Notes under the pieces: model-generated
Told to the model about the DNA's origin: nothing
Databases searched by the model: none
The model's input: the letters and a program-made list of their open reading frames with translations, nothing else
Shown: positions 5,756-20,506 of the stretch, in pieces
How the letters are laid out: the number at the start of each line of letters is the position of its first letter
Numbering within the stretch: the stretch's first letter is position 1
From: Bradyrhizobium erythrophlei
Lineage (GTDB): Bacteria; Pseudomonadota; Alphaproteobacteria; Rhizobiales; Xanthobacteraceae
Length of the DNA stretch: 64,000 bases
Assembly (NCBI RefSeq): GCF_900142985.1
Contig: NZ_LT670849.1
Location: 3,720,001-3,784,000, forward strand
Reading direction: 5' to 3'
Translations under genes and position numbers: made by a program

Positions 5756-5830
5756 CTGAAACCCCTATCCTCTTTGCTGAACTGCAAACACGCATTAATC
5801 TCAGGGCTGCGCCCGAGGGAGGGCGTCTGT

Positions 5831-8356
5831 ATGGCCGACAAAGTCGACAGCGAGAATTACGGAGATCGGAGCGATCCCGTTGCTCGATTGCGGGGCGAGT
5901 TGGAGGAGGCTCGGCGGCAACAGAGCGCGACCGCATCTGTGCTCAAGGCAATGAGTGCATCGGCCAGCGATCTGGATGCCGTATTTCGATCCGTTGTCGA
6001 GAACTCGGTCGTACTTTGTGGTGCTGATCGAGCGATTATCTTTAGGTTCGACGGACAAGTATTGAGGGCAGCCGCGGCATTCAATACTCCTCCTGAGGTA
6101 ATCAACTGGATAGAACGAAATCCGATCCTCCCCGGCGACTACAGTGTTGCAGCGCGAGCGGCCCTGAATAAACGAACCTGCCACGTCACTGATGTGCTCG
6201 CAGATTCCCGGCACACCTATCAGGCGAAAAATATCGAGGAATTCCGCACCGTCCTCGGGGTGCCAATTCTAACAAGCGATCGCCTGTTAGGGGTCCTGCT
6301 GCTCTACCGCACCAAAGTAAAGCCTTTCGAGGACAGGCAAATCAACCTTGTCGAGATTTTCGCCGATCAAGCCGCCATCGCGATCGAGAACGCACGGCTC
6401 TTCGGCGAGGTGCAGGCGCGCACAAAGGATTTGCAGGAATCCCTTCAACAGCAGACCGCGACAGCCGACGTTCTGAAGGTGATCAGCAGATCGGCGTTTG
6501 ATCTGCAGACAATCCTCGACACGCTGGTCGAATCTGCCGCGCGGCTGTGCGAAGCTGAAATGGCGTTTATCCACCGCCGCGAGGGCGAGCAATATCGGGC
6601 AGCGGCAACTTTCGGCTTTGCGCCCGAATTTTGGGCATTTATGCAAAGCCATCCGATTACCCCTGGCCGCGGGTCCATTGCCGGCAGAGTTGCCCTGGAG
6701 CGGCACGTTATCCAGGTTGAAGACGTGGCGGCCGATCCGGAATACACGTTGAAGCAGGCCACTTTGCTCGCCCGACAACATACGACCCTCGGTGTCCCAT
6801 TGCTGCGAGAAAAAGAGCTCATCGGGGTCATCGTACTCGCGCGCCAGCGCGTCGAAATTTTTACCGAGAAGCAAATAGCGCTGGTCGCCACCTTCGCTGA
6901 CCAGGCAGTGATTGCCATCGAAAACGCGCGGCTATTCGACGAAGTGCAGGCGCGAACGCGCGACCTCACGGAATCGCTGCAGCAGCAGACCGCGACCGCC
7001 GATGTTCTGAAGGTCATCAGCCGCTCGGCTTTTGATTTGCCGACCGTCTTGCAGGCGCTGGTGGAATCGGTTGCGCGGCTCGTCGCCGCCGACGAGGCCA
7101 TCATCACCCGCCAGAGAGATGGCGCGTTCTATCGCGCCGAATCAATCGGCTTCTCGGATGAATTCCTCAAGTTCGTTCGCACCGTGCCTGTCGCGCCTGA
7201 GCGCGGCTCGGCGGTGGGCCGAGCTCTGCTCGATGGCGTCGTGGTGCACATTCCTGACGTCGAGGCGGATCCGGAGTATACCTTCGACAGCGCCCAGCGG
7301 CTTGGCGACTTCCGAAGTCTGCTGGCGGTGCCGATGCTGCGTGAAGGCGCGCCCGTCGGGGTGATCCTGTTGACACGCAAGGAGCCTCGTGCGTTCACCA
7401 CGAAGCAGATCGAACTTTCCACTACCTTCGCCGACCAGGCGGCAATCGCAATTGAAAATGTTCGGCTGTTCGACGAGGTGCAAGCGCGCACGGAGGAGTT
7501 GGCGGTATCGCTTGAAAACCTGCGCACTACGCAGGACCGGCTGGTGCAGACCGAAAAACTCGCCTCGCTCGGCCAACTCACGGCCGGCATCGCGCACGAA
7601 ATTAAGAACCCTCTAAACTTTGTCAACAATTTCGCCGCGCTTTCGGCGGAGTTGACCGATGAACTCAATGATTTGCTCAAGACCGCCGCACTGAACGACA
7701 GGCTTCAAAAGGAGGTCGATGAATTAACGCGGACGCTGAAGGACAATCTCGAAAAAGTCGTCCAGCACGGCAGGCGCGCCGACTCCATTGTTAAGAATAT
7801 GCTGCTGCATTCGCGTGAGAGCTCCGGTGAACAACGGCCTGCGGACATCAATGCACTTCTCGATGAAAGCCTCAATCTCGCCTATCATGGCGCACGAGCC
7901 GAGAAACCGGAGTTCAATATTACGCTGCAGCGCGACTTGGACCCGACCGCTGGCGCGATTGATGTGTTCCCGCAGGAAATCACCCGCGCCTTTATCAATC
8001 TGATCTCGAACGGATTTTATGCTGCGAGCAGGCGTAAAGCGGCGAATAGTAAGATGGATTTCGAGCCGATACTCCGTGCTACCACGAAGAATCTCGGAAG
8101 TACCGTGGAAATTCGCATTCGCGACAATGGCACCGGCATTCCATCCGAAGTAAAAGAAAAGATATTCAACCCGTTCTTCACGACCAAGCCGGCTGGAGAG
8201 GGTACCGGGCTTGGTCTTTCGATGAGCCACGACATCATTGTGAAACAACATGGCGGCACCATAGATGTCGATACCGCTCTTGGCGCATTCACCGAATTCA
8301 GAATTGTCCTGCCGCGTGTCGGGGCATCCCTTATCAAGTCAGGAGGACCTGCGTGA
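5831..8356 (+). CDS. Triple-GAF sensor histidine kinase
   Basis: A cytosolic 841-aa sensor kinase. Three GAF domains lie at about residues 30-185, 215-370 and 400-555, joined by near-identical linkers (QQQTATADVLKVISRSAFDL), so the array arose by internal duplication. A short coiled segment leads to a HisKA-like box (LTAGIAHEIKNPLNFVNNF, phospho-His in HEIKN) and a HATPase domain (IRDNGTGIPSEV, GEGTGLGLSMS). ATG at 5831 is preferred over 5774 because GAGGGAGGG lies 8 nt upstream. It overlaps the next gene by 4 bp. GAF ligands are unknown; the adjacent binding-protein cluster may feed the same sensory circuit (inference). Confidence 0.93.
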   Translation: MADKVDSENYGDRSDPVARLRGELEEARRQQSATASVLKAMSASASDLDAVFRSVVENSVVLCGADRAIIFRFDGQVLRAAAAFNTPPEVINWIERNPILPGDYSVAARAALNKRTCHVTDVLADSRHTYQAKNIEEFRTVLGVPILTSDRLLGVLLLYRTKVKPFEDRQINLVEIFADQAAIAIENARLFGEVQARTKDLQESLQQQTATADVLKVISRSAFDLQTILDTLVESAARLCEAEMAFIHRREGEQYRAAATFGFAPEFWAFMQSHPITPGRGSIAGRVALERHVIQVEDVAADPEYTLKQATLLARQHTTLGVPLLREKELIGVIVLARQRVEIFTEKQIALVATFADQAVIAIENARLFDEVQARTRDLTESLQQQTATADVLKVISRSAFDLPTVLQALVESVARLVAADEAIITRQRDGAFYRAESIGFSDEFLKFVRTVPVAPERGSAVGRALLDGVVVHIPDVEADPEYTFDSAQRLGDFRSLLAVPMLREGAPVGVILLTRKEPRAFTTKQIELSTTFADQAAIAIENVRLFDEVQARTEELAVSLENLRTTQDRLVQTEKLASLGQLTAGIAHEIKNPLNFVNNFAALSAELTDELNDLLKTAALNDRLQKEVDELTRTLKDNLEKVVQHGRRADSIVKNMLLHSRESSGEQRPADINALLDESLNLAYHGARAEKPEFNITLQRDLDPTAGAIDVFPQEITRAFINLISNGFYAASRRKAANSKMDFEPILRATTKNLGSTVEIRIRDNGTGIPSEVKEKIFNPFFTTKPAGEGTGLGLSMSHDIIVKQHGGTIDVDTALGAFTEFRIVLPRVGASLIKSGGPA

Positions 8357-8742
8357 CCCTGCTCATTCTCGTGGTCGATGACGAGCCGGATGTCGAGGCG
8401 CTGTTTCGCCAGCAGTTCCGGCGCGAACTTCGCGCTGGTCGCTTCGCGATGGAATTTGCGCAATCTGCCCCGATGGCTATTCAGCGTATTACCAATGCTG
8501 GTGACGAGTCTCTCATTCTGATTTTGTCCGACATCAACATGCCGGGGATGAGCGGTCTTGAGCTCCTTCCCAAGGCAAAGGCCGTTCGGCCGGATGTTCC
8601 GATTATCATGATCACTGCCTACGGCGATGCGGAGACCAAGCGTCGGGCGCTTGAGAATGGCGCGGAGGCACTTCTGACCAAGCCGATCGATTTCGGGACG
8701 CTACGCAGCGAGATCGACAGCCGCGTTGAGCGCGCGGCATAA
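8353..8742 (+). CDS. Single-domain response regulator (CheY-like)
   Basis: A 129-aa receiver domain without an output domain. The acidic pocket is VVDDEPD, the phospho-acceptor Asp is in LSDINMPGMSG, with conserved Thr in MITAYGD and Lys in LTKPID. The start is GTG overlapping the kinase stop (GTGA), so the two are translationally coupled and almost surely form a kinase-receiver pair. It must act through protein contact, for example on a further kinase or enzyme. Confidence 0.93.
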   Translation: MTLLILVVDDEPDVEALFRQQFRRELRAGRFAMEFAQSAPMAIQRITNAGDESLILILSDINMPGMSGLELLPKAKAVRPDVPIIMITAYGDAETKRRALENGAEALLTKPIDFGTLRSEIDSRVERAA

Positions 8743-8787
8743 CGGTCAAAATTCCATTGAAGTTTACTGCGGCGCATGAGTCTCTTG

Positions 8788-8897
8788 TTGGCACGAAACG
8801 GACCAGCCGGGTTGTTGCGTCGAAGTCCGTTGATTGGGGTAGACCGGAAGTGGCTGGCGCATCGTCACAGCGACGCGATTGACCCTGAAGCGACATA
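8788..8897. repeat. Dispersed intergenic repeat, copy R1
   Basis: About 110 bp sharing with R2 (10017-10125) the strings GGCACGAAACGGACCAGC, GTCCGTTGAT, GGGGTAGACCGGAAGTGGC and GACGCGATTG in the same order and spacing. It lies upstream of the first binding-protein gene. Confidence 0.7.
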
Positions 8898-8980
8898 AGC
8901 AAGCGGATCTTGGTGCAACGCACAGGCGCCCTTGCGCCCTATGATGTGCTAGACTGTGGACCTTCGTCCGAGGCCACCTT

Positions 8981-9970
8981 ATGCGACGGCGCGAATTCAT
9001 TACCCTGCTTGGCGGCGCGGCTGCATGGCCGCTTCCGGCGCGCGCGCAGCGGCCTGACCAACTACGCCGCGTCGGCGTCCTCATGGGTTTAGCCGAAGAC
9101 GATCCTGACTCGAAGGCGCGTCTGGGGGCATTCCGGCAGGGACTAGAGAAGCTCGGTTGGTCCGAGGGCCGTAATATCCACCTCGAAGTCCGCTTTGCAC
9201 TCCCTGCCGATGAGCAGCGAGCACAGATGCTGGCGAAGGAGCTACTCGCGGTCAGTCCCGATGTGGTCGTGGCGCAGACTACAGCACTTACTGCCGCTTT
9301 CCGACGAGAGAGCCGAAATGTTCCGATTGTATTCATCGCTGTTGGCGACCCGATCGGCGCGGGCTTCATCGCCAACCTGGCGCGGCCGGGCAGCAATCTT
9401 ACGGGCCTGACCCTGTATGACGGCAGTGTCGCCGGAAAGTGGCTGGAAATGCTGAAGGAGATCGACCCGCGCGTCACGCGCGCCGCTTTCATCATCAACC
9501 CAAAGACCAGCTCCTTTCCGCTTCTTGCGCGTGAAACCGAAACCATGGCCCAGTCGCTGGCGATCGAGTTGACCTTGAGCACCATCGAGAACGCTGGTGA
9601 CATTGCGCGCGTCATTGAGTCCTTCGCCAGTTTACCAAACGGCGGCCTGGCCTTTCCGCCGAATGCGACCACCACTGCTAATCGTGACCTCGTCGTCGCG
9701 CTGGCGGCGAGGTACCGTTTGCCTGCCGTGTATGCATGGCGCGAGTTCGTCACGGCTGGCGGCCTCTTGTCCTACGGAACCAACTTCGTAGAGCTATTCC
9801 GGCAAGCAGCGCCCTACGTTGATCGCATTTTGCGCGGCAGCTTGCCCGCGGAGCTTCCGGTGCAGACGCCGACCAGGTACGAAATGGTCCTGAATCTCAA
9901 GACTGCGAAGGCGCTCGACTTGAACGTGCCCGCCGGCCTATTGGCGGCCGTTGACGAGGTCATTGAGTAG
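8981..9970 (+). CDS. Substrate-binding protein, PF04392 (ABC_sub_bind) family, array member 1
   Basis: A 329-aa periplasmic binding protein with a twin-arginine-like signal (MRRREFITLLGGAAAWP, cleavage after ARAQ). The mature protein has two Rossmann-like lobes: RRVGVLMGL, a GLEKLGWSEGRNI block, PDVVVAQTT, PIVFIAVGDPIGAG, RPGSNLTGL, and the closing GGLLSYGTNFVELFRQAAPY and PTRYEMVLNLKTAKAL motifs common to all array members. It ends DEVIE. No permease or ATPase is nearby. Stand-alone members may present ligands to sensors rather than to a transporter (inference). Confidence 0.88.
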   Translation: MRRREFITLLGGAAAWPLPARAQRPDQLRRVGVLMGLAEDDPDSKARLGAFRQGLEKLGWSEGRNIHLEVRFALPADEQRAQMLAKELLAVSPDVVVAQTTALTAAFRRESRNVPIVFIAVGDPIGAGFIANLARPGSNLTGLTLYDGSVAGKWLEMLKEIDPRVTRAAFIINPKTSSFPLLARETETMAQSLAIELTLSTIENAGDIARVIESFASLPNGGLAFPPNATTTANRDLVVALAARYRLPAVYAWREFVTAGGLLSYGTNFVELFRQAAPYVDRILRGSLPAELPVQTPTRYEMVLNLKTAKALDLNVPAGLLAAVDEVIE

Positions 9971-10016
9971 GGCCGGGTTCTATAGTGCAATTGCTGCACC
10001 TGCTCGCGGCAGGAAG

Positions 10017-10125
10017 TGGCACGAAACGGACCAGCGAGGTCGGTGCGTCAATGTCCGTTGATCGGGGTAGACCGGAAGTGGCAAGCCCAAGGTCAGAACG
10101 ACGCGATTGGACCCGCTTCGGACAT
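10017..10125. repeat. Dispersed intergenic repeat, copy R2
   Basis: Second well-preserved copy of the family (see 8788). It lies between array members 1 and 2, about 100 bp before the second start. Confidence 0.7.
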
Positions 10126-10129
10126 CGGT

Positions 10130-10221
10130 GACCGCCAAAGATATTTCACCAGACCGCTCCCCACACCTACCAGATATCGAAAGTAGAGCGCACACTGCCA
10201 CATCTGATCCGAGGGGCGGTC
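10130..10221 (+). promoter_or_regulatory. Leader shared with the 16107 gene
   Basis: This 92-bp leader and the one at 16013-16106 share GATATCGAAAGTAGAGCGCA followed by CACTGCC, plus AAAGATA, GACCG, CCCCA and GAGGGGCGG before the ATG. The conservation continues into the signal-peptide codons, then is lost. A common promoter and 5' UTR for both two-gene units is likely. Confidence 0.6.
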
Positions 10222-11235
10222 ATGAAGCGGCGCCAGTTCATCACACTCATCAGCGGCGCGGCAACGGCTTGGCCGGTTGCGGCGCGGGCACAGCAGCAGC
10301 CGACGCCCCTGAAGCCGATGATCTTAAAGCCAATGCCGGTAGTCGGGTATCTATTCGCTGGTTCGCCTGAACAGAGCACCAATCTCCTGTCGGCATTTCG
10401 CAAAGGTCTGAACGAAGCAGGGTATATCGAGGGCCAAAACGTAACTATCGAATATCGCTGGGCGCACGCCGACGACAGCCGACTGCCGGAATTAGTGGCC
10501 GACCTGGTTCGCCAACGAGTGACTGTCATTGTGACCCCGGGCAGCACGCCCGCGGCACTCGCCGCCAAAACAGCGACCACGACAATACCAATCGTATTCG
10601 GGATCGGCTTAGATCCGGTCCGAGTTGGTCTTGTTGATAGTCTCAACCGACCAGGCGGCAATGTTACAGGGGTCAGCTACATCCAGACGGAACTTACGGA
10701 AAAGCGGCTTGGTCTGTTGCATGAACTGTTACCGAAGGCCGCGCGATTTGCTGTACTTGTCAACTCAAGCAATCCGAGTACTGAGCCGGTGGCCAAAGAA
10801 GCCCAGGCCGGAGCCGTTGTCATCGGAGGGCAAGTTGAAGTTTTCACGACCGCCACCAATCGCGACATTGATGCCATCTTCGCAAGGCTTGCAGAGAACC
10901 CTGCTGACGCACTTCTAGTTAACGCTGATCCCTTGTTCTTCACGCGTCGGGTACAACTCGTTGCGTTGGCGGCGCGTCATGCACTGCCCACAATGTATCC
11001 AAATCGCGAGTATGTCGAAATTGGCGGGCTTATGAGCTACGGACCGAAACTTACGGACCAGTTTGGCCAAGTTGGCGTCTACGTTGGTCGTATTCTCAAG
11101 GGCGAGAAGCCCGCCGACCTGCCAGTCATGCTACCGACCGACCTCGAGTTTGTCATCAACCTCCAAACAGCCAAGGTAATTGGCCTGACTGTGCCGCCTA
11201 ACTTGCTTGCCCGAGCCGACGAGGTGATCGAATGA
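10222..11235 (+). CDS. Substrate-binding protein, PF04392 family, array member 2
   Basis: 337 aa with a twin-arginine-like signal (MKRRQFITLISGAATAWP, ARAQQQ), then a short proline-rich linker and the two-lobed binding fold: PVVGYLFAG, GLNEAGYIEGQNVTIEYRW, VTVIVTPGSTPAALAAK, RPGGNVTGV, GGLMSYGPKLTDQF, and RADEVIE at the end. The stop overlaps the next start by 4 bp (ATGA), so members 2 and 3 form a coupled pair. The same pairing is seen for members 4 and 5. Confidence 0.88.
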   Translation: MKRRQFITLISGAATAWPVAARAQQQPTPLKPMILKPMPVVGYLFAGSPEQSTNLLSAFRKGLNEAGYIEGQNVTIEYRWAHADDSRLPELVADLVRQRVTVIVTPGSTPAALAAKTATTTIPIVFGIGLDPVRVGLVDSLNRPGGNVTGVSYIQTELTEKRLGLLHELLPKAARFAVLVNSSNPSTEPVAKEAQAGAVVIGGQVEVFTTATNRDIDAIFARLAENPADALLVNADPLFFTRRVQLVALAARHALPTMYPNREYVEIGGLMSYGPKLTDQFGQVGVYVGRILKGEKPADLPVMLPTDLEFVINLQTAKVIGLTVPPNLLARADEVIE

Positions 11236-12221
11236 GGCGGCGGGAGTTTATCACGCTTGTCGGCGGCGCGGCTGCATTGCCGCTCGCGGCGCAGGCGCAG
11301 GCGCAGCAACAGCCGATGCCGGTGATAGGGTTTCTTCACCTTACATCGCTCGAATCCTCGCGTGAAAAACTCGCCTCTTTTCGTCGAGGGCTAGGTGAAA
11401 TCGGTTACATCGAGGACAGGAATGTGGCGATCGAATACCGGTGGGCGCAAGGTGATAACGGTCGGCTGCCAACGCTGGTCGCCGAACTGGTTAGCCGCCA
11501 GGTATCCGTGATCGTTACACTGGAGAGCACAAAGGGTGCGTTAGCAGCCAAAGCGGCGACCCAAACCATCCCGATCGTTTTTTTGCAGGCCGCCGATCCG
11601 GTACAGATTGGCCTCGTCGACAGTTTCAGCCGACCTATCGGAAATGTCACTGGAATCAATCTCATGGTTGCCGAACAGGCTGGAAAGCGCCTTGAGCTGT
11701 TGCTCGAACTGGTGCCTACGGCCACATCGATCGCTTACCTCCGCGACCCGACCAACCCCGTTTTTGCCGAGAGCGAACTGAAAGTTTTGCAGGCTGCAGT
11801 GCGTGATCATGCACTTCGCCTCCTGGTCGTGAATGCAAGTCGCCCAAGCGAGTTCGAGACGGCATTTGCGGACCTTGTTCAGCAGCGGGCTGACGCTGTC
11901 GTGGTGAGTAGCGCTGTTTCTCTTCTTACCAATCCCGATCAAATCGTCGCGCTCGCATCCCGCCATGCTATGCCAGCGATTTACGCGTGGCGCCCCTCGA
12001 TGACAGTCGGTGGTCTTATCAGCTATGGAACGAATCTTCCTGATGCTTGGCGGCAAGCGGGTGTCTACACCGGCCGGATTCTCAAGGGCGAAAAGCCCAC
12101 CAATTTGCCGGTCTTGCAACCGACGAAGTTTGAACTCATTATAAATCTCAAAACCGCCAAAGCACTCGGACTTACGGTCCCACCGGCTCTACAAGTAGCT
12201 GCCGATGAGGTGATCGAATAG
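11232..12221 (+). CDS. Substrate-binding protein, PF04392 family, array member 3
   Basis: 329 aa, translationally coupled to member 2. Signal MRRREFITLVGGAAALPLAA with three QA(Q) repeats at the cleavage site. Core motifs are PVIGFLHL, GLGEIGYIEDRNVAIEYRW, VSVIVTLESTKGALAAK, GNVTGINLM, GGLISYGTNLPDAWRQAG and ADEVIE. Its first 69 bp plus the preceding 17 bp are identical to those of member 5, although the mature proteins are clearly different. This points to recombination or gene conversion at the leader. Confidence 0.88.
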   Translation: MRRREFITLVGGAAALPLAAQAQAQQQPMPVIGFLHLTSLESSREKLASFRRGLGEIGYIEDRNVAIEYRWAQGDNGRLPTLVAELVSRQVSVIVTLESTKGALAAKAATQTIPIVFLQAADPVQIGLVDSFSRPIGNVTGINLMVAEQAGKRLELLLELVPTATSIAYLRDPTNPVFAESELKVLQAAVRDHALRLLVVNASRPSEFETAFADLVQQRADAVVVSSAVSLLTNPDQIVALASRHAMPAIYAWRPSMTVGGLISYGTNLPDAWRQAGVYTGRILKGEKPTNLPVLQPTKFELIINLKTAKALGLTVPPALQVAADEVIE

Positions 12222-12255
12222 CGACGCTGTTTGTTGGGGTGCATGAGTCCCTCAT

Positions 12256-12352
12256 TGGCACAAAACCGACATGTCGTTGCAGTCGCCGCATGTCGGCTGT
12301 TGGGGGATGAACGGACGTCGATCAGACGTCGCCTGAGGTCCGAGTTTGACCC
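12256..12352. repeat. Degenerate dispersed repeat, copy R3, interrupted by the IS1182 element
   Basis: Begins TTGGCAC-AAAACCGAC and contains GGGGGATGAACGGACG and GTTTGACCC in the family order, but is more diverged than R1 and R2. The IS1182 left end begins directly after GTTTGACCC, so the element appears to have landed in the tail of the repeat. Confidence 0.45.
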
Positions 12353-13909
12353 TGGCTGTGTGAAAACGCAGCGCCGCTGTTATGATTCTCCAGTGATTCT
12401 TGGAGAAATCGATGAGGCGCTTCGTTGAGGAGGCGGATCGTGGGCAATGGACGCTGTTGCCCGGATGCCTTGATGATTTTATTGACGAGAGCAACCCGGT
12501 TCGTGTGATCGACGTGTTTGGCGACGCGCTCGACTTGGCCGAGATGAGTTTCGAAGGGGTAGAGCCGGCAGCAACTGGTCGGCCGTCGTACCATCCCTCG
12601 GTTCTCCTGAAGCTGTACATCTACGGCTATTTGAACCGGCTGCAGTCGAGCCGGCGGCTGGAACGAGAGGCCGGACGCAATGTGGAGGTCATGTGGTTGC
12701 TGGGTCGGCTCGCGCCTGATCACAAGACGATCGCGGACTTCCGCAAAGACAATGGTCTGGCGCTTCGCAAGGTATGTGCGCGCTTTGTCGAACTCTGCCG
12801 TGAAATGGGCCTTCTCGCGACGACGAGCGTTGCCATTGATGGCAGCAAGTTCAAGGCCGTGAACAACCGGGACAGGAACTTCACAAAAGCGAAGGTGGAG
12901 CGGCGACGCGCTCAGCTAGAGGAGAGCGTCGCGCGCTATCTGAGCCAACTCGACACCGCCGACAGGCAGGAGCCGACTGAAGCGCTGGCCGCGAAGGTGA
13001 CAAGGCTCACCGAGAAACTGACGAAACTGAAGGAGGAAATGGGCAAGCTTGCGGTTTACGAGAAGCGGATCCTGGCTTCGCCTGACCAGCAAATCTCTCT
13101 GACCGATCCCGACAGCCGTTCGATGGCAACGAGCGGGCGTGGGTCTGGCGTTGTCGGCTACAATGTGCAGGTCGCGGTCGATACCGATCATCACCTGATT
13201 ATCGCGCACGAGGTAACGAACGCCGGCTCGGACCGGGCACAACTCGCCAACATCGCGTCTCGTGCAAAGGATGTCCTCGGTGTCGAAAAATTAGAAGCCG
13301 TTGCTGATCGTGGCTACTACAGCAGCGAGGAAATCCTTGCCTGCGACAAGGCGGGAATTGCGGTGACGCTTCCCAAGCCGATGACATCAGGTCTTGAGGC
13401 ACGGGGTCGCTTTGGCAAACAGGACTTTGTCTATCTCAGCGACGAGGATGCGTATCGCTGTCCGGCTGGCGAAAAGCTGATCTACCACTACACCAATGAG
13501 GAACACGGGCAGCAGCTACGGCGCTATTGGACTAACGCGTGCCGCGACTGTGCACTCAAAGCTAGCTGCACAACCGGCAAGGAGCGGCGGATTACGCGCT
13601 GGGAGCATGAGCATGTGCTGGAAGAAGTGCAGAGGCGCCTCGACAACAACCCCATGGCCATGCGGCAGCGGCGCGAGACAGTCGAACATCCGTTCGGCAC
13701 GATGAAAGCCCGCATGGGGGCGACGCACTTCCTCACAAAAACGCTTCCAAAAGTAGCCGCCGAGATGGCCCTCTCGGTTCTCGCCTACAATCTGACCCGG
13801 GTAATGAACATCGTCGGGATCAAGCCGCTGATCGCCGCGATCGTGGCCTGAGACACCACTTGGGCCGACTGCCAGGGGCGACATCGCTAAGGCCGTTTTG
13901 ACACGACCA
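12353..13909 (+). mobile_element. IS1182-family insertion sequence with terminal inverted repeats
   Basis: Left end TGGCTGTGTGAAAACG (12353-12368) and right end CGTTTTGACACGACCA (13894-13909) are inverted repeats matching at 13 of 16 positions. They bracket one full transposase gene. The exact outer boundary and any target duplication could not be fixed by eye. Confidence 0.7.
12412..13851 (+). CDS. IS1182-family transposase
   Basis: 479 aa, apparently intact. The N-terminal DUF772-like region has PSYHPSVLLKLYIYGYLN and RRLEREAGRNVEVMWLLG. The DDE core has SVAIDGSKFKAVNNRDRN for the first Asp, VADRGYYS for the second Asp and TVEHPFGTMKARMG for the Glu. A charged coiled segment lies at residues about 160-225. 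A Cys-rich patch (CRDCALKASCTTG) precedes the Glu motif, as usual for the family. ATG at 12412 is chosen for its GGAG 6 nt upstream. Confidence 0.93.
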   Translation: MRRFVEEADRGQWTLLPGCLDDFIDESNPVRVIDVFGDALDLAEMSFEGVEPAATGRPSYHPSVLLKLYIYGYLNRLQSSRRLEREAGRNVEVMWLLGRLAPDHKTIADFRKDNGLALRKVCARFVELCREMGLLATTSVAIDGSKFKAVNNRDRNFTKAKVERRRAQLEESVARYLSQLDTADRQEPTEALAAKVTRLTEKLTKLKEEMGKLAVYEKRILASPDQQISLTDPDSRSMATSGRGSGVVGYNVQVAVDTDHHLIIAHEVTNAGSDRAQLANIASRAKDVLGVEKLEAVADRGYYSSEEILACDKAGIAVTLPKPMTSGLEARGRFGKQDFVYLSDEDAYRCPAGEKLIYHYTNEEHGQQLRRYWTNACRDCALKASCTTGKERRITRWEHEHVLEEVQRRLDNNPMAMRQRRETVEHPFGTMKARMGATHFLTKTLPKVAAEMALSVLAYNLTRVMNIVGIKPLIAAIVA

Positions 13910-14070
13910 AGACCCATTGCAGACCTTGTTAGGACACGCCAAGATTGGGCTTCCATCGGGCGGGCGGAGCTGAAACTGCATTTTGTAGATGACGCCGAGG
14001 TCAAGGGTGGGAAGACTGCGTTCGACCGCCTTTGCGTTTCGTTCCTAACAACAGCAGGCAAGAGGTACAA

Positions 14071-14463
14071 ATGACCGTAACGCTCGCTTCAAACAGGATC
14101 GTGAATCCGCCAGAGCTCGCTTCACACTTCATCGCGGTCAACGATATGCCTTGGTCTCAGACCGATTTTCCCGGCATTGTTATGAAAGTTCTGTATTCCG
14201 ACAAGGCTTCCGGCGCTGCAACGATTATGTTCAAGATGGACCCGGGATCCGTCGTGCCGCTGCACGAACATACGGCTTTGGAGCAGACATATATGTTGTC
14301 CGGCAGTCTGAAGGACGACGAAGGCGAAGTCGGACCCGGCGAATACGTTTGGCGTCCGGGTGGCAACAGGCACATCGCTCATGCCCCCAACGGCGCTGTC
14401 TTCATCTCGTTCTTCCTTAAGCCGAACAAGTTCGACCAAGGCTCTAAGTTTTTCACCGAGTGA
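14071..14463 (+). CDS. Small cupin-domain protein
   Basis: 130 aa, single cupin barrel. Cupin motif 1 is complete: HEH, then Glu three residues on (PLHEHTALEQTYMLSG). Motif 2 is RPGGNRHIAHAPNG with its His. The likely metal ligands are therefore present. It resembles ChrR-type or dihydroxyacetophenone-dioxygenase-type cupins. AGAGGT 5 nt before ATG 14071 decides the start. It lies 106 bp before the LivK-like gene on the same strand, possibly one transcript. Confidence 0.8.
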   Translation: MTVTLASNRIVNPPELASHFIAVNDMPWSQTDFPGIVMKVLYSDKASGAATIMFKMDPGSVVPLHEHTALEQTYMLSGSLKDDEGEVGPGEYVWRPGGNRHIAHAPNGAVFISFFLKPNKFDQGSKFFTE

Positions 14464-14569
14464 TTGCCAGTCCCCGCGGTTGAGAGTTTCCTCTGGTTGT
14501 GACGTGCGGGAAATAAGCCGACTTCGTCCAATGATGAGCCGCTGAGGACACCGATAAAAGGGACGAAAA

Positions 14570-15796
14570 ATGAAACGAAGCGCGAGTGCTATCGCCGTGG
14601 CCGCAGTCCTTGGTGCCGTTGGTGTGACAGGCGCGCTGGCGCAGTCCTCCGACCAAAGTCCCGTGCGGATTGGCGTCTTGGAAGACATGACGGGACCACT
14701 GTCCAGCATCGGAGGGCCTGGAAACGTCGTAGCGGCCCAGATGGCGGTCGAGGATTTTGGCGGCACGGTGCTCGGTCGAAAGATCGAGATCGTTTCTGGC
14801 GACGATCAGAACAAACCTGACGTCGGGCTCGGCATCGTCCGCCGTTGGTTCGACGTCGAAAACGTCAGCATGGTAACGGGCCTCGGCAATTCGGGCGTAG
14901 CCCTCGCAATCCAAAATCTGGCTCGAGAACGCAAGCGCATAGACATCGTCATCGGTGCTGCCGCTCAAGAACTTTCGACAAAACAGTGCTCGCCGACGGG
15001 TTTCCAATGGAACTGGGACGCGCATGCCGTCGCATCGACGGTCGTGAACGGTCTTATGGACGCGACGCAGGCGAAATCTTGGTATTTCCTCACAGTCGAC
15101 TACGCCTTCGGCCATTCCGTCGAACGCGAGGCTACCGCGATCATCAAGGATCGAGATGGTAAGGTAGCCGGTTCTGCTCGGCATCCACTGGGAACCGCGG
15201 ACTTCGCTTCCTTCATGCTGCAAGCGCAGGCCTCGAAGGCGGACGTCGTCGCGCTGGCCAACGTCAGCGCTGATCTCGTGAATTCGGTGAAGGCGTCCAG
15301 GGAGTTCGGGATCGTCGCTGGTGGCCAGAAGCTCGCAGCATTCATCCTGCAGCAGGCCGAGGTTTCCGGACTCGGTCTCGACGTGGCCAAGGGATTGGTT
15401 ACGACCTCAGCATTTTTCTATGGAATGAGCGACGAAACACGTGCATTCGGCGATCGCTTCGCGTCCCGCTTCAACGGACGACTGCCGGGCACGAACCAGG
15501 CCGGAGTTTATTCTGCGGTGCTGCATTACCTCAAAGCCATGCAAGCGGCGGGGACCGATTCGGGCGAGACGGTTGCGATCGCGATGCGGCGTATGCCCGT
15601 GACCGATTTCGTGAATAAAGAGGCGCACATTCGTGCCGACGGTCGTTTGCTCCGCGATCTATTTCTCGTCCAGGTAAAGTCCCCCGAAGAGTCTAAATTC
15701 CAGGGCGATTTTTATAAAGTGCTGGCGAAAGTCGGTCCCGAAAAGGCATTCGCGAAGATAAGTGATGACTGCGTTATCCCGAAGTCAGCGGAATGA
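14570..15796 (+). CDS. LivK-like periplasmic substrate-binding protein (Peripla_BP_6)
   Basis: 408 aa with a signal peptide ending GALAQ. The binding fold is of the branched-chain amino acid/amide type: PVRIGVLEDMTGPLSSIGG, GRKIEIVSGDDQNKPDVG, KSWYFLTVDYAFGHS, AGVYSAVLHYLKAM. It ends with a Cys-containing tail (SDDCVIPKSAE). AAGGGACG precedes the ATG. No LivHMGF transporter genes adjoin it. It is a different family from the PF04392 array around it, but shares the orphan arrangement. Confidence 0.88.
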   Translation: MKRSASAIAVAAVLGAVGVTGALAQSSDQSPVRIGVLEDMTGPLSSIGGPGNVVAAQMAVEDFGGTVLGRKIEIVSGDDQNKPDVGLGIVRRWFDVENVSMVTGLGNSGVALAIQNLARERKRIDIVIGAAAQELSTKQCSPTGFQWNWDAHAVASTVVNGLMDATQAKSWYFLTVDYAFGHSVEREATAIIKDRDGKVAGSARHPLGTADFASFMLQAQASKADVVALANVSADLVNSVKASREFGIVAGGQKLAAFILQQAEVSGLGLDVAKGLVTTSAFFYGMSDETRAFGDRFASRFNGRLPGTNQAGVYSAVLHYLKAMQAAGTDSGETVAIAMRRMPVTDFVNKEAHIRADGRLLRDLFLVQVKSPEESKFQGDFYKVLAKVGPEKAFAKISDDCVIPKSAE

Positions 15797-16106
15797 AGCG
15801 TCACTAGGACGCGTTCCAACGACGGCAGGTCGCAGCGTTTTGTACAACGGCTGTGTCAATGAAATCGAACAAATCGCGGACGCCTCAGTGGCGGACCTAT
15901 GGCGGCTTGTGGCACGAAGCGTTTGCCCTGATCAGGGTCCGCTGCTGGGGGGACAAACGGACGTGGACCCTTCGCTTTTCGAAGACTCACTTTGATCCGA
16001 AGGGGACATCGTCGACCACGAAAGATACTTCGCGGGACCGTCCCCAACGCCTATCGGATATCGAAAGTAGAGCGCACACTGCCGTCGTCTTGTCGGAGGG
16101 GCGGCC
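15797..16106. repeat. Intergenic region with repeat copy R4 and the shared leader
   Basis: Positions 15909-16008 carry a diverged member of the dispersed repeat family (GGCACGAAGCG, GGGGGGACAAACGGACGTGG, then TTTGATCCGAAGGGGACATCG). Positions 16013-16106 carry the leader shared with the 10222 gene. No gene is seen. Confidence 0.5.
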
Positions 16107-17093
16107 ATGAAGCGGCGCGAGTTCATAACACTCATCAGCGGCGCGGCAACGGCTTGGCCGTTCGCTGCTTACGCAGAACAATCTACCCGCATTCGGAAGG
16201 TCGCTGTCATCTTGGGGGTTGCCGACGATACGGAGGGCCATGCCCGGTTAGGTGCCCTCAAGCAAGGCATGGAGACCCTAGGGTGGTTCGAGGGCCGGAA
16301 TGCCCATTTCGATGTCCGGTACACTGCCGCCAACCCCGAAATTATACGTAGCGCAACTTCGGAAATCATGGGTCGTGCCCCTGATGTCATCGTCGCAAAT
16401 ACCAACAAGGTTGTCATAGCGCTTAAACAACAAACCCGCGCGCTTCCAATCGTATTCGTGCAGGTTATTGATCCCGTTACCGCGGGACTTGTTGAAAGCC
16501 TCTCGGCTCCTGGAGGAAATGTCACGGGGTTCATGAGTGCCGACTTCTCTCTCTCCGCCAAATCCGTCGAGACGCTCAAGGAGATTGCGCCCCAAGTGAC
16601 ACGTCTTGCCATGTTGCGCGACTCCACCGATCCCCAATCGATTGGTCAGGCAGCGTCCGTCCAAATGGCCGCGACCTCGCTTGGCATGGAACTCACCTCG
16701 ATTGAAATCGGTGATGCTGACACAATTTCACGAGGGATCGATTTGTTTGCACGGCGGCAGAATGGAGGCCTCGTTGTCACCGCGACGCCGCTTTCGACGG
16801 TTCATCTTGAAACGATTATTGCAGCGGCGGCTAGAAATAAGCTGCCCGCAATCTATCCCTATCGGTATTTTGCGAACCGAGGTGGCCTAATTTCCTACGG
16901 GGCGGATAATCTCGATCTTTGGCGGCGAGCCGCCACCTATGTGGACCGCATTCTAAAAGGTGCAAATCCTTCTGAATTGCCGGTCCAACAGCCGACGAAG
17001 TTTGCCCTCATCATCAATCTCAAAACGGCCAAGGCACTTGACCTCAAGCCGGAACCCACCCTTCTCGCCCGCGCCGACGAGGTGATCGAATGA
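16107..17093 (+). CDS. Substrate-binding protein, PF04392 family, array member 4
   Basis: 328 aa. Signal MKRREFITLISGAATAWP is almost the same as in member 2, but the mature protein is unlike it: VAVILGVADDTEGHARLG, GMETLGWFEGRNAHFDVRY, PDVIVANTNKVVIALK, APGGNVTGFM, GGLISYGADNLDLWRRAATY, RADEVIE. The stop overlaps member 5 by 4 bp (ATGA), repeating the pair architecture of members 2 and 3. Confidence 0.88.
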   Translation: MKRREFITLISGAATAWPFAAYAEQSTRIRKVAVILGVADDTEGHARLGALKQGMETLGWFEGRNAHFDVRYTAANPEIIRSATSEIMGRAPDVIVANTNKVVIALKQQTRALPIVFVQVIDPVTAGLVESLSAPGGNVTGFMSADFSLSAKSVETLKEIAPQVTRLAMLRDSTDPQSIGQAASVQMAATSLGMELTSIEIGDADTISRGIDLFARRQNGGLVVTATPLSTVHLETIIAAAARNKLPAIYPYRYFANRGGLISYGADNLDLWRRAATYVDRILKGANPSELPVQQPTKFALIINLKTAKALDLKPEPTLLARADEVIE

Positions 17094-18073
17094 GGCGGCG
17101 GGAGTTTATCACGCTTGTCGGCGGCGCGGCTGCATTGCCGCTCGCGGCGCAGGCGCAGCAACCTGAACATCCGACCCGGATCGGCTTGCTGCCGTTGGGC
17201 TTCCCGTCAAACTCATACGATCAGTCGCTCGTTGAAGCTCTGCGCCAGGGTATGCGCAAGGTCGGATTGATTGAAAATCGCAATGTGACGATAGACATCG
17301 TGTGGGTCAGCAAGGAGACCGATTTCCCTGACGCCGTTAGGGAGTTGGTGCAGCGGGGCGCGAAACTTTTGGTAACGGCGGGTTCAAGCGCGTCGGCGGC
17401 AGCGAGGCAGTACACTTCGACGATCCCGATCATTTTTGTTTCGGTCGGCAACCCTGTCGGCATCGGACTTGTTCAAGGACTGTCACGCCCAGGTGGCAAC
17501 GCAACCGGTCTTACTGATGTACTTGGAGACTTAAGCAGCAAGTATGTGGACTTCGCCTTGCAGTTGGGTAAGCCGCAAACTCCAGCCTATTATCTTTGGT
17601 ATACTGAATGGCCGGATAGGCAACGACGGCTTCAAGCGACCGAGCGAGCAACCCAATCGGTTGGCGCAAAGCTTCAATCAAGGGGGATTCGCGACCTTGA
17701 CGAAGCAAACGATGTTCTGGCTTCGATGAAGAACGACGGTGCGCGGGTGATCCTCATACAACCCAGTCCGTTCACATATCGTCATCGAAATCAAATCATC
17801 GATTCTGCAATGAACCATGGCCTTGGGACGATATTTTCGTGGTCATTTGCATCGCGAGAGGGCGCGTTGATCGCGTATGGTCCCGATTTCCCCTATATGT
17901 ATCGTCGTGTCGGCGCCTACGTCGAGCAAATCCTCGCAGGTGTAAAGCCCGCAGACCTGCCCGTCGAGGAACCAACCAAGTTTGAGTTGGTCATCAATCT
18001 CCATACCGCGAGAGCACTCGGTCTCGCGATTCCACCGACATTACTTGCCCTCGCCAACGATGTGATCGAATGA
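17090..18073 (+). CDS. Substrate-binding protein, PF04392 family, array member 5
   Basis: 327 aa. The first 23 codons are identical at DNA level to member 3 (identity block 17073-17158 versus 11215-11300). The mature protein then diverges: TRIGLLPLGFPSNSYDQS, IENRNVTIDIVWVSKE, SRPGGNATGLTDVLGDLSS, EGALIAYGPDFPYMYRRVG. It ends ANDVIE. Directly after the stop, the ATGAAGCGGCGGGAGTT of another leader begins and is cut off. Confidence 0.88.
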   Translation: MRRREFITLVGGAAALPLAAQAQQPEHPTRIGLLPLGFPSNSYDQSLVEALRQGMRKVGLIENRNVTIDIVWVSKETDFPDAVRELVQRGAKLLVTAGSSASAAARQYTSTIPIIFVSVGNPVGIGLVQGLSRPGGNATGLTDVLGDLSSKYVDFALQLGKPQTPAYYLWYTEWPDRQRRLQATERATQSVGAKLQSRGIRDLDEANDVLASMKNDGARVILIQPSPFTYRHRNQIIDSAMNHGLGTIFSWSFASREGALIAYGPDFPYMYRRVGAYVEQILAGVKPADLPVEEPTKFELVINLHTARALGLAIPPTLLALANDVIE

Positions 18074-18087
18074 AGCGGCGGGAGTTA
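18070..18087 (+). pseudogene. Truncated leader of a lost array member
   Basis: ATGAAGCGGCGGGAGTT is the invariant start of these binding-protein genes. It sits in the usual 4-bp overlap with member 5 and then runs into unrelated sequence. It marks a deleted or displaced next member. Confidence 0.6.
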
Positions 18088-18153
18088 GGGACAAGCTGCC
18101 ATGCTGGGTTCGGCATGTGATCACCGCAATCCCACTCAGAACGGGAGGATAAA

Positions 18154-18657
18154 TTGCAGAAGAAAATGTCGGTCGCAATTGTTGCGGCTGCGATTTTGGA
18201 GCTCGCTTTTTCTACCGCTAGCATTGCGAAAGGGGATGAAGTTTTGAAGTTCCGCATAGTCACTCATGCAACCTCTGTTCAAGCTCAGGATGTCGGCGAC
18301 GTTGATGGACATGCTCTGGGTTTGGCCCGTCAAAGCGGTCTCGCGTTTTTTCCCGACGGATCGGTCGGCACCACATACTTCACAGCGACAAACGACTTTA
18401 CTAAGGGTGCAGGGACGTATCTTACTTATTACAACCTCACTTTAAAGGACGGTTCGGTTCTTTGGTTCAAAGCGAACGGGACAGCCCAACCTGACGGCAC
18501 AACAACTATTTTTCCTGAGACCGCAGTCAGCGTTCTGCGCGGAACAGGTCGCTTCGAAGGAGCCAAGGGCGATGGCACCTTATCGGGCATGCGCATATCG
18601 CCGCTTGCAGTCGGCGCAGACCTGTATGTGGATGTTATCGTCAACCTGAGAAAATGA
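18154..18657 (+). CDS. Secreted allene-oxide-cyclase-barrel-like protein
   Basis: 167 aa with an N-terminal signal (AIVAAAILELAFSTASIAKG) and a beta-rich body. TYFTATNDFTKGAGTYLTYY and VLRGTGRFEGAKGDGTLSG resemble AOC-barrel/dirigent-like folds found in secreted bacterial proteins. TTG at 18154 is favoured because GGGAGG lies 5 nt upstream, whereas the in-frame ATG at 18166 would be too far from it. Function unknown. It is inserted between array members 5 and 6. Confidence 0.65.
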   Translation: MQKKMSVAIVAAAILELAFSTASIAKGDEVLKFRIVTHATSVQAQDVGDVDGHALGLARQSGLAFFPDGSVGTTYFTATNDFTKGAGTYLTYYNLTLKDGSVLWFKANGTAQPDGTTTIFPETAVSVLRGTGRFEGAKGDGTLSGMRISPLAVGADLYVDVIVNLRK

Positions 18658-18691
18658 ATCGGCACAGCCAATCGGGTTTTCGGGGGCGAGC

Positions 18692-19684
18692 ATGAAGCGG
18701 CGGGAGTTCATCACGCTTGTCGGTGGTGCTGCAACAATTTGGCCGCTTGCGACGCGAGCGCAGCAGGCCGGTCCTGTGCGGCGGATCGGCATCTTGATGG
18801 GAGGCGCTGAGAGCGACAAAGAAGGGCAGTCGTCGGTCGCGGCGTTTCGGGAGGGGCTTCGGAAGCTCGGGTGGATGGAGGGCCGCAACAGCGAGATCGA
18901 CATTCGCTGGGCGGCAGCTGATGTCGAGTTGATGAAACGATTCGCGAAGGAACTTGTCGCGCTTCAACCGGACCTCATTCTTACGAGCACTACTCCCGCT
19001 GCCGCAGCCATGCTCCAACAGACGCGTACCATCTCTGTTATTTTCGTACTCGTTGCCGATCCTGTTGGTAGCGGTTTCGTGACGAGCTTGCCGAGGCCAG
19101 GCGGTAACGCGACTGGCTTCACCCCAATCGTGAGCTCACTGGGTGGCAAATGGGTAGAGTTGCTCAAGGAGATTGCGCCGCGCGTTGCCCGGATCACGTT
19201 AGTGTTCAATCGGCCAACGGCGACGTTCGTCGACGGTTATTTGCCTACATTCAAGACCGCCGCTGCCTCCCTCGGCGCGGAAACGATAGTTGCCCCTTTT
19301 AACGACATGCCGACACTCGAATCTCTCCTTACCACGGAGGCGCGGGAGCCCAATAGTGGCCTCGTCGTAATACCGGATGCCTTCACTCAACAACATCGCG
19401 CGGAAATTACTGCGCTAGCTGCTCGCTTCCATCTCCCGGCGGTTTATTGGTCTCGTTCATTTGCTGAAGCCGGAGGCTTGATTTCCTACGGCCCTTATCT
19501 CATCGATGAGTATCAACGTGCGGCGTCGTACGCGGACCGCATTCTCAAGGGCGCGAAACCAAGCGAGCTTCCCGTCCAAGCTCCGGTCAAGTTCGAGATG
19601 GTGGTAAACCTCAAGACCGCCAAGGCACTCGGGCTTGATGTACCGCCGTCGCTGCTGGCCGCCGCCAATGAGGTGATCGAATGA
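18692..19684 (+). CDS. Substrate-binding protein, PF04392 family, array member 6
   Basis: 330 aa. Signal MKRREFITLVGGAATIWPLA, then GPVRRIGILMGGAESDKEGQ, GLRKLGWMEGRNSEIDIRW, PDLILTSTTPAAAAML, RPGGNATGFTP, GGLISYGPYLIDEYQRAASY, and AANEVIE at the C-terminus. Closest in style to member 1. The next ATG overlaps its stop but belongs to a broken copy. Confidence 0.88.
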   Translation: MKRREFITLVGGAATIWPLATRAQQAGPVRRIGILMGGAESDKEGQSSVAAFREGLRKLGWMEGRNSEIDIRWAAADVELMKRFAKELVALQPDLILTSTTPAAAAMLQQTRTISVIFVLVADPVGSGFVTSLPRPGGNATGFTPIVSSLGGKWVELLKEIAPRVARITLVFNRPTATFVDGYLPTFKTAAASLGAETIVAPFNDMPTLESLLTTEAREPNSGLVVIPDAFTQQHRAEITALAARFHLPAVYWSRSFAEAGGLISYGPYLIDEYQRAASYADRILKGAKPSELPVQAPVKFEMVVNLKTAKALGLDVPPSLLAAANEVIE

Positions 19685-19725
19685 GGCAGCCCGAGTTCAT
19701 CACGCTGGTGGGCAGAGCAGCTTGA
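19681..19725 (+). pseudogene. Second truncated leader of a lost array member
   Basis: ATGAGGCAGCCCGAGTTCAT encodes MRQPEFITLVGRAA and then a stop. This is a decayed signal peptide in the exact place where a seventh coupled gene would start. Confidence 0.65.
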
Positions 19726-19772
19726 TGCCGCTGCCATGTCGACCTTTGCATTCCCCCGCCACCCCTTTAAAT

Positions 19773-20003
19773 TCACGCGGCGTGTCCCTTGTCTGAAGGT
19801 TCCTTGACGGTGGTCACGGTTTCTTCCACGCCCTTTTCGTAATTGCCCGCGAGCCTCTCGATACCGTCCGCCCACATCCTCAGCATTGAAACTTGAAAGT
19901 GCATAATTGGCTTCAAAGCATTCATGCCGATTGCCGTCGCCGCGGTGATGCGCGTTTGTTGGTCGCGTGCGAAACCATTTGCGTTGAGGTTCTTGTCTGC
20001 CAT
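19773..20003 (-). CDS. Small phasin-like hypothetical protein
   Basis: 76 aa starting MADKNLNANG, with GGAG 8 nt upstream of the ATG at 20003. It is helical (IGMNALKPIMHFQVSMLRMW), followed by a charged tail (VEETVTTVKEPSDKG). The helical central segment is reminiscent of phasins, but it is too short for a firm call. Cytosolic. Confidence 0.55.
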   Translation of the reverse strand: MADKNLNANGFARDQQTRITAATAIGMNALKPIMHFQVSMLRMWADGIERLAGNYEKGVEETVTTVKEPSDKGHAA

Positions 20004-20032
20004 GCTGTTCGCTCCGTCTCTGATGTTACGGC

Positions 20033-20482: not shown

Positions 20483-20506
20483 ACGCCTAGCTCGCGAACG
20501 GGTTTG

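Follow-up and report, generated by a model that had tools for sequence, protein, structure and literature searches.

PF04392/TrpX-like binding proteins of importers have a permease and an ATPase of their own, a complete set of which is present in L253. A different kind of gene collection is found in integrons, in which cassettes line up head to tail, with a conserved junction between them, and are gained or lost whole behind a shared leader. Expansions of orphan binding proteins are known for the Bug/TctC (TTT) family in Bordetella, Rhodoplanes and Bradyrhizobium icense, for which the parts of the study covered here describe large differences in copy number, tandem arrays of up to nine genes and low identity within arrays (PMC5994714). 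Finally, sensor kinases can depend on a periplasmic binding protein, as described in the parts covered of a report on LuxP-LuxQ, TorT-TorS and XylFII-LytS (PMC6321045).

Here, we analysed a 64,000-nucleotide stretch of Bradyrhizobium erythrophlei DNA (the window), which contains an array of six PF04392 genes, named S1 to S6. The array shares its protein family with the TrpX-like importers, but its cognate permease was not found in the genome, the tail of its genes forms a Shine-Dalgarno site and a start codon, and there are several genes instead of one per transporter. It resembles the Bug/TctC expansions as a tandem array of orphan binders with low identity among its members and large copy-number differences; however, the protein family is another one, and an overlap code, shared junction DNA and head/core exchange are not described in the parts of PMC5994714 covered. 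Relatives of the array are similar to LuxP-LuxQ, TorT-TorS and XylFII-LytS in combining a periplasmic binder with a membrane sensor, as their binder gene overlaps or adjoins the gene for a dCache-HAMP kinase or a cyclase, but they have many binders per receptor, and contact between the proteins is putative. As with integron cassettes, one unit of the array follows another head to tail across a conserved junction, and units come and go as wholes behind a shared leader; this junction is coding DNA, however, and homologous recombination offers the simpler route. Neither the junction code nor operons of PF04392 and dCache genes were found described in the parts seen of the open-access literature searched.

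Results

Layout of the array

The six PF04392 genes occupy positions 8981-19684 of the plus strand, and none of the six reading frames is broken or truncated (Table 1). All six proteins match PF04392 (E 8e-25 to 2e-45; 88-156 bits against a curated cut-off of 25.9), and S4 matches the solved relatives 3LKV (E 6e-30) and 3LFT (E 1e-19). The array proteins, which all have a twin arginine (RR) at residues 3-4, are predicted to be Tat-type periplasmic binding proteins. The genes are not contiguous: an IS, a cupin gene and an unrelated LivK-type gene separate S1-S3 from the rest of the array, while S5 and S6 are separated by a 167-aa ORF. The cupin is not part of the binding-protein repertoire. The first-pass annotation had listed six PF04392 proteins and one LivK-like protein on one strand with no permease or ATPase, and this inventory was borne out, as Pfam matched all seven proteins and gave no ABC permease or ATPase among the 20 window ORFs scanned. 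It had also included the LivK-like gene among those sharing head and tail, which was incorrect, as both the RREFI head and the DEVIE tail are absent from it. Behind a truncated PF04392 frame at C1:4718937 there is DNA related to the remnant 3' of S6. An Rfam scan of positions 8300-20500 returned no RNA family at the gathering threshold, and terminal inverted repeats of the IS were not found by the criterion applied.

Table 1. Features of the array and its left flank (window positions).
Feature	Position	Strand	Basis or remark
Triple-GAF histidine kinase	5828..8356	+	Pfam GAF x3, HisKA, HATPase_c
Stand-alone response-regulator receiver, overlaps kinase 5828..8356	8353..8742	+	PF00072 E 2.7e-22
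S1, PF04392 binding protein, last codons GAG TAG	8981..9970	+	Pfam
S2 leader and head block	10120..10283	+	84% identical to S4 block over ~165 bp
S2, PF04392 binding protein	10222..11235	+	Pfam
S2-S3 tail/ATGA/head junction, Shine-Dalgarno GAGGTGATC and ATG of S3	11215..11300	+	86 bases identical to 17073-17158
S3, PF04392 binding protein, last codons GAA TAG	11232..12221	+	Pfam
IS, DUF772/DDE transposase ORF 12400-13851	12255..13924	+	Pfam; 99% copy at C1:127875, same genome
Cupin PF12973	14032..14463	+	Pfam
LivK-like PF13458 binding protein	14570..15796	+	Pfam E 1.6e-96
S4 leader and head block	16004..16168	+	84% identical to S2 block
S4, PF04392 binding protein	16107..17093	+	Pfam
S4-S5 tail/ATGA/head junction	17073..17158	+	identical to S2-S3 junction over 86 bases
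S5, PF04392 binding protein	17090..18073	+	Pfam
Decayed head remnant 3' of S5 (ATGAAGCGGCGGGAGTTAGGG)	18070..18090	+	sequence
167-aa ORF, hydrophobic N-terminus	18154..18657	+	no Pfam match at E<=0.001
S6, PF04392 binding protein	18692..19684	+	Pfam; 82% nt match in genus genome G178
Decayed head remnant 3' of S6	19681..19732	+	sequence

Transporters and receptors

The linked permease and ATPase of a canonical PF04392 importer are absent from the window ORFs scanned. In a wider search, a cognate PF04392-type permease gave no match in the same genome at E<=1e-8 and was matched in two of 40 genus genomes, which are those with the two strongest PF04392 hits. S1-S6 are orphan binders: no cognate ABC permease, which had been named beforehand as counter-evidence to the cassette reading, was found in the genome.

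In relatives, PF04392 genes are linked to membrane receptors. Related arrays run by start/stop overlap (-4) into dCache-HAMP kinases or a cyclase. With receptor classes and class I+II counts assigned by hand from the match list, a PF04392 gene was present beside 20 of 20 class-II dCache-HAMP receptor loci examined, which are consecutive in rank, with 12 lower-ranked class-II hits outside the count. For class I, the 20 loci with the best scores were examined, that of the query among them; nine had a PF04392 gene and 11 had none in their 1.5 kb flanks. Of 38 random loci, 0 had one. The 40 genomes yielded 377 PF04392 and 99 receptor matches, and the copy numbers correlate (rho.59, not corrected for phylogeny). 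A binder gene beside a receptor with an extracytoplasmic domain is found in relatives and not in the window. No class I or II receptor was matched in this genome, and the 8.5 kb examined at its only related receptor match (class III, 38% identity) contains no PF04392 gene. In the neighbouring kinase neither HAMP nor Cache was matched, and the single, marginal hydrophobic segment falls within a GAF domain; this kinase is apparently soluble and therefore probably does not contact periplasmic proteins directly.

A sensing role is likely for the PF04392 family and unproven for the S1-S6 array itself. The proposal of the first-pass annotation that these proteins serve sensing and not import is thus supported at the level of the family by the overlaps and the class-II loci, whereas the adjacent triple-GAF kinase, on which it had relied, is weak evidence. 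GAF kinases were only weakly enriched around the PF04392 loci of the genus (8 hits in 934 kb versus 1 in 740 kb of random loci, p.043), and this result was set aside. Cyclase domains were hit 6 times in 934 kb (genus) and 4 times in 792 kb (named), versus once in 740 kb (random).

It is also conceivable that the cassettes are real and serve uptake and a wider diet, with a generic importer encoded elsewhere, such as a Liv-type ABC permease, being common to the orphan binders. PF04392 proteins could use such a promiscuous importer, the array encloses a LivK-like gene, the genome lacks a class I/II receptor match, and the parts covered of PMC5994714 discuss one membrane part for several binders in TctC-type expansions. 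Nevertheless, we regard shared import as rather unlikely, since PF04392 genes are linked to receptors in relatives, their copy number follows that of the receptors, and few genomes of the genus sample have the cognate type of permease.

Proposed function of the gene tail

The last codons of these genes, GAC GAG GTG ATC GAA TGA, are a Shine-Dalgarno site and the ATG of the following gene, and a 16S 3' end with GATCACCTCC is present in the same genome. The exact GACGAGGTGATCGA was found in the DEVIE tails of 42 of 53 genes with a PF04392 follower, defined as a further PF04392 gene starting between -5 and +40 nt, and in 47 of 100 others, with an expected fraction of.06. The residues EV are coded GAGGTG in 119 of 165 terminal versus 42 of 186 interior cases. 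Neighbouring PF04392 genes overlap by exactly four bases in 59 of 166 pairs (12 duplicates removed; 62 of 178 before), and chains reach 9 genes. Genes with nothing following retain the Shine-Dalgarno codons, and present-day coupling does not account for this retention.

In the array, live ATGA overlaps are confined to S2/S3 and S4/S5, where the Shine-Dalgarno site lies inside the upstream gene and translational coupling is predicted. S1 and S3 stop with TAG, and the ends of S5 and S6 lead into decayed remnants of a head and are dead junctions, so that the description of last codons leading through ATGA into the next start holds for two junctions and fails for the ends of these four genes. Based on sequence, a main reason for the constant tail, which the first-pass annotation had overlooked, is that it encodes the predicted ribosome-binding site and the start codon of the next gene.

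Conserved ends, divergent cores and turnover

Among the six array genes, mean nucleotide identity is.76 in the head (25 codons),.46 in the core and.66 in the last 27 codons, and the same codon is used at identical residues at rates of.56,.34 and.48, respectively. This pairwise comparison along the genes, a check set beforehand, rules out uniform divergence. The ends are indeed conserved and the mature proteins differ greatly, as first annotated, but 'nearly constant' overstated the likeness of the heads, which are 67-84% identical in 14 of 15 pairs. The 86 bases across the S2/S3 and S4/S5 junctions are identical, silent sites included, with flanking cores of ~30% protein identity. All 22 head codons for identical residues match between S3 and S5, the cores of which are 31% identical in protein.

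For a broader comparison, larger PF04392 gene sets were picked by an RR-like head: a first set in which 117 of 175 hit frames were full-length genes (112 after removal of five with an atypical head) and a larger one with 262 of 434 frames, 246 of them unique. In unlinked pairs of the 246 genes, the same-codon rate was.58 versus.38 expected in the tail and.38 versus.36 in the core, and the shared codons at the gene ends are therefore not due to chance. The silent-site excess is concentrated at the gene ends, and conserved interior columns have little of the codon bias found in the tail. The core of overlapped pairs had some same-codon excess over same-locus pairs (p.003), and part of the end effect may hence reflect recent common ancestry. 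The same-codon excess of heads was not greater in overlapped than in same-locus pairs (p.31) and, within overlapped pairs, not greater in the head than in the core (p.17), so that head homogenisation as a general silent-site effect is unsupported. The higher head identity of overlapped than of unlinked pairs (.601 versus.501, p 1.4e-4) was set aside because genome composition was uncontrolled. Head exchange is supported by the S3/S5 identity and by the syntenic site described below, and we confine it to these data.

In orthologue-like pairs (core nucleotide identity of at least.68, n=107), heads are less alike than cores (.684 versus.770). The S3 core is 79% identical in nucleotides to a gene in genus genome G017, the head 67%, and the best match of S5 among 97 other genus genomes is 42% identical. 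At one syntenic site, the number of PF04392 genes varies from 0 to 3 across the genus, and their core families, combinations and orders differ. Of the 23 loci examined there, seven hold 1-3 genes, 15 hold none on either strand and one ends too early. The occupation of L116, L117 and L191 and the presence of a gene in G015 were known beforehand, and most of the other loci were taken from the upper part of the match list. In G032, core beta carries a leader and head like those of gene A of G178. Heads do not follow cores at this site (Mantel rho -.03, p.57); with the 16 codons that come next to the signal peptide on its 3' side, rho is.28 (p.026). The varied gene numbers, cores and orders and the uncorrelated heads point to cassette-like turnover, in agreement with the repertoire that the first-pass annotation had envisaged. 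A search with the kinase DNA outside this genome gave partial matches of 69-78% identity among the matches listed, with no clear syntenic copy of the left flank of the array among them.

These comparisons bear on another explanation, ordinary tandem duplication of a transport binding protein, in which protein selection keeps the ends alike (Tat signal, C-terminal helix) while positive or relaxed selection has let the cores diverge. In its favour, the PF04392 family consists of ABC binding proteins, genes outside arrays also keep the protein sequence of the terminal NLKTAKALGL...DEVIE, and overlapped pairs share slightly more silent codons than same-locus pairs in the core as well. Duplication is nonetheless improbable in view of the identical junctions between such different cores, the concentration of silent-site excess at the ends, the orthologue-like pairs with less similar heads, the absent head-core correlation at the syntenic site and the absent permease match. 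That the genes were stranded by the IS insertion and are a decaying, mostly silent remnant with no current function as a set agrees with the IS in mid-array, the dead junctions 3' of S5 and S6, the TAG ends of S1 and S3 and the few DNA matches at E<=1e-30 (S1-S3 in 10 and S4-S6 in 8 of 265 genomes, own genome included, searched without the IS, which dominated whole-array matches), but is equally improbable for six full-length intact frames with good PF04392 matches.

Discussion

We propose that the array is probably a set of plug-in cassettes of orphan PF04392 binders, which exchange through their ends and most likely present ligands to membrane receptors. The tail codons would act as a Shine-Dalgarno site and, with the TGA stop, also provide the start codon of the following gene. 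A gene joined at the tail, an anatomy that is observed, would then need neither its own promoter nor its own ribosome site for translation. Heads and tails would further offer short homology for the gain, loss, reordering and swapping of whole genes or cores, presumably by ordinary recombination enzymes, the outcome of which is seen in relatives. The binders may present diverse ligands to membrane receptors, as suggested by their wiring to dCache-HAMP kinases or a cyclase in relatives. More tentatively, PF04392 genes may possibly constitute a self-propagating repertoire of ligand-presenting proteins that soil bacteria can assemble and reshuffle, in which the junction DNA serves both the start of the successor and exchange within and between genomes, and which feeds a few dCache-HAMP receptors.

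Taken together, the array offers a testable reason why soil bacteria have large sets of orphan binding proteins. It also offers a simple genetic means of enlarging these sets, in which a coding tail is both the next ribosome-binding site and recombination homology. If these genes are indeed linked to dCache-HAMP receptors, this link provides candidate partners for a large class of transporter-less binding proteins and suggests a route by which one receptor could respond to many ligands. If the repertoire is indeed self-propagating, it would be a modular front end for chemosensing, in which each receptor is served by many interchangeable binders.

Conserved ends and variable cores

The six PF04392 binding-protein genes S1-S6 (see table) lie in a 7.5 Mb, single-contig genome with 16 PF04392 matches, six of them in this array; across the genus, Bradyrhizobium as judged by named relatives, matches number 0 to 45 per genome, with at least one in 39 of 40 genomes. 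The first-pass annotation had placed a LivK-like gene in the same set. Shared ends are seen in the six PF04392 genes; the LivK-like gene has neither the common head (first 25 codons, encoding the signal peptide with RREFI) nor the common tail (last 27 codons, ending in DEVIE). Elsewhere in the window, a single ORF at 3453-4883 combines a guanylate/adenylate cyclase and an alpha/beta hydrolase domain, and a tandem pair of overlapping DUF347 repeat proteins is encoded at 35570-37131.

Features of the PF04392 array (window coordinates)
Feature	Position	Strand	Basis or remark
S1 PF04392 gene	8981-9970	+	ORF and Pfam match
S2 PF04392 gene	10222-11235	+	ORF and Pfam match
S3 PF04392 gene	11232-12221	+	ORF and Pfam match
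IS splitting array	12255-13924		99% copy at C1:127875 (C1, the genome's contig)
Cupin splitting array	14032-14463		
LivK-like gene splitting array	14570-15796		PF13458
S4 PF04392 gene	16107-17093	+	ORF and Pfam match
S5 PF04392 gene	17090-18073	+	ORF and Pfam match
167-aa ORF splitting array	18154-18657		
S6 PF04392 gene	18692-19684	+	ORF and Pfam match

For head, core and tail, mean pairwise nucleotide identity among S1-S6 is.76,.46 and.66, and the same codon is used at identical residues at rates of.56,.34 and.48, respectively. The pairs S2-S3 and S4-S5 are dyads that share a frame and differ in content: S2 and S4 have leader plus head blocks with 84% identity across about 165 bp, and between the dyads the tail/ATGA/head blocks match at 87% across 148 bp, including an 86-base exact run, with core protein identities of 31% for both S2/S4 and S3/S5. 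S3 and S5 have a head identity of 1.00, which drops to.30 directly past the signal peptide; divergence is not uniform along the genes, and the proposed pattern stands in part, with ends that are conserved rather than nearly constant. Silent-site identity flanking such distant cores is unlike the outcome of uniform descent.

A repeat starting TGGCACGAAACGGAC is found in the intergenic DNA upstream of S1 (window 8789) and of S2 (10017). In relatives, a non-coding TTTGCTGCGGTGCATGAGTCC...TGGCAC-like stretch lies downstream of the stop codon in many otherwise unlike PF04392 genes, and similar DNA is located upstream of S1 (8762-8800) and downstream of S3 (12230-12260); this stretch may be an additional conserved cassette edge.

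The tail encodes a predicted translation start signal

The final codons GCC GAC GAG GTG ATC GAA TGA include GAGGTGATC, which is complementary to the 16S rRNA 3' end (GGCTGGATCACCTCCTTTCT, a single occurrence in the genome), and the GAGGTG core is placed five bases upstream of the ATG made by GA-ATG-A. The comparison set comprised 246 unique full-length PF04392 genes, drawn from the genus and from relatives among the Alphaproteobacteria, Deltaproteobacteria and Rokubacteria. After removal of duplicates, 59 of 166 neighbouring PF04392 pairs overlap by exactly four bases, and the longest chain comprises nine genes (locus L231). The DEVIE tail is encoded exactly as GACGAGGTGATCGA in 42 of the 53 genes that have a further PF04392 gene next to them, at -5 to +40 nt, versus 47 of 100 others (codon-usage expectation.06), and EV is encoded by GAGGTG in 119/165 terminal versus 42/186 interior dipeptides. 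Same-codon use exceeds expectation 1.2-2.1-fold in the last six codons, the ratio at conserved interior columns being mostly about 0.8-1.3 with a few exceptions. GAA is also preferred ahead of the stop in genes ending in TAG or TAA (64 GAA versus 23 GAG), in which no ATGA can form, as would be expected if solitary genes descend from, or still swap ends with, array members.

Dead junctions persist downstream of S5 and S6, a truncated PF04392 frame at C1:4718937 is followed by DNA related to the post-S6 dead junction, and in relatives tail-like remnants precede a few heads. On the L113 minus strand, a tandem double tail lies before the next head, in the interval from the gene at 3354 to the one at 4364 (strand coordinates), and resembles an insertion that brought its own upstream tail. 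Judged by reading of the sequence, TctC-like binder genes begin at or just past a PF04392 tail in L228 (near 3822) and L211 (near 2056), one of them with a GTGA overlap, and the PF04392 junction may thus serve another family of binders as well.

General homogenisation of heads is counted against by the head same-codon excess of overlapped pairs, which does not surpass the excess in same-locus pairs (p.31) or in the core (p.17). The tail excess of overlapped pairs is larger than that of same-locus pairs (p 6e-4) and of the core (p 1e-8). As the core excess of overlapped pairs is also above that of same-locus pairs (p.003), some recent common ancestry likely lies behind them.

Turnover at one genus site

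The DNA left of the L116 array is present in 263 of 265 genus genomes. Of 23 loci read with this flank, seven carry PF04392 genes (3, 3, 1, 1, 1, 2 and 2), 15 have both flanks and lack such genes on both strands, and one lies on a contig that stops too soon. The 13 genes fall into core families alpha (G134b, G120a, G020a), beta (G178B, G134c, G032, G120b) and gamma (G134a, G020b) and four further cores (G178A, G178C, G053, G015). Their orders are gamma-alpha-beta, alpha-beta, alpha-gamma, A-beta-C and beta by itself. Heads do not track cores (Mantel rho -.03, p.57); for the 16 codons directly past the signal peptide, rho is.28 (p.026). The lone G032 gene joins a head resembling that of G178 gene A (.85) to core beta, with nucleotide identities to G178B of.84 in the core and.58 in the head, and its leader is related to the gene A leader (62-66% identity in local alignments). 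First-gene leaders match locally in 16 of 21 genome pairs (24 to 197 nt), although most first cores differ. Head identity is below core identity (.684 and.770) across 107 orthologue-like pairs, so heads are not simply slow. With none to three genes at one site, varied cores and orders, and heads uncoupled from cores, the idea of a cassette-style repertoire is supported.

Receptor linkage and the role of the binders

At 89 of 353 distinct PF04392 tails, an ORF of 100 aa or more begins at the -4 overlap; its product is a PF04392 protein in 77 cases and another protein in 12. Three of the latter (L205, L235, L242) are histidine kinases of dCache-HAMP-GAF type; L205 scores 41.9 bits for dCache, below the 45-bit cut-off, and L242 ends at a contig edge. 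A dCache-HAMP cyclase is encoded at L193 and a dCache-HAMP protein, incomplete at the locus end, at L231. The L194 ORF runs into a HAMP-GAF kinase frame, to which the domain match belongs. The remaining six are the TctC-like binder of L228 and five frames of 104-169 aa, which may be spurious. In L113, L210 and L214, a dCache-HAMP-GAF kinase starts 4-19 bases past the tail.

The dCache-HAMP part of the L113 kinase has matches in 39 of 40 genus genomes; the exception, G037, is likewise the one without PF04392. Receptors were assigned to classes by hand from the match list. A PF04392 gene adjoins the receptor at 20 of 20 class-II loci read, 12 with a GTGA-consistent junction, and occurs within 1.5 kb flanks at 9 of 20 class-I loci, the query's own counted; 38 random loci (740 kb) contained none. 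PF04392 numbers correlate with those of all receptors (rho.59, p 7e-5) and of hand-counted class I and II receptors (rho.56, p 2e-4), both values being uncorrected for phylogeny.

At L253 (3666-6514), a PF04392 binder gene is accompanied by genes for a permease and an ATPase, adjoining what read as histidine-degradation genes; this binder has neither the RREFI head nor the DEVIE tail. The linked permease was matched in two of 40 genus genomes, the holders of the two strongest PF04392 matches. It had no match in the window genome. S1-S6 may be served by another importer.

Expansions of orphan binders, tandem arrays included, are known for the TctC family (PMC5994714), and binder-dependent kinases are also known (PMC6321045). 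Among the literature entries searched, none described PF04392 arrays, a tail that encodes the ribosome site of the following gene, or PF04392-dCache operons.

Sensing rather than import had been proposed from the GAF kinase upstream of the array. This kinase has three GAF domains, HisKA, HATPase and a single marginal hydrophobic segment, and neither Cache nor HAMP was matched in a Pfam scan, so it is probably cytoplasmic. The only receptor match in the window genome is of class III (38% identity), with no PF04392 gene in the surrounding 8.5 kb. Sensing is therefore a family-level reading: the proposal gains from receptor linkage in relatives, the neighbour cited being weak evidence. On these gene neighbourhoods, sensing is likely the role of the PF04392 family, and S1-S6 would be candidate, though unproven, sensing proteins.
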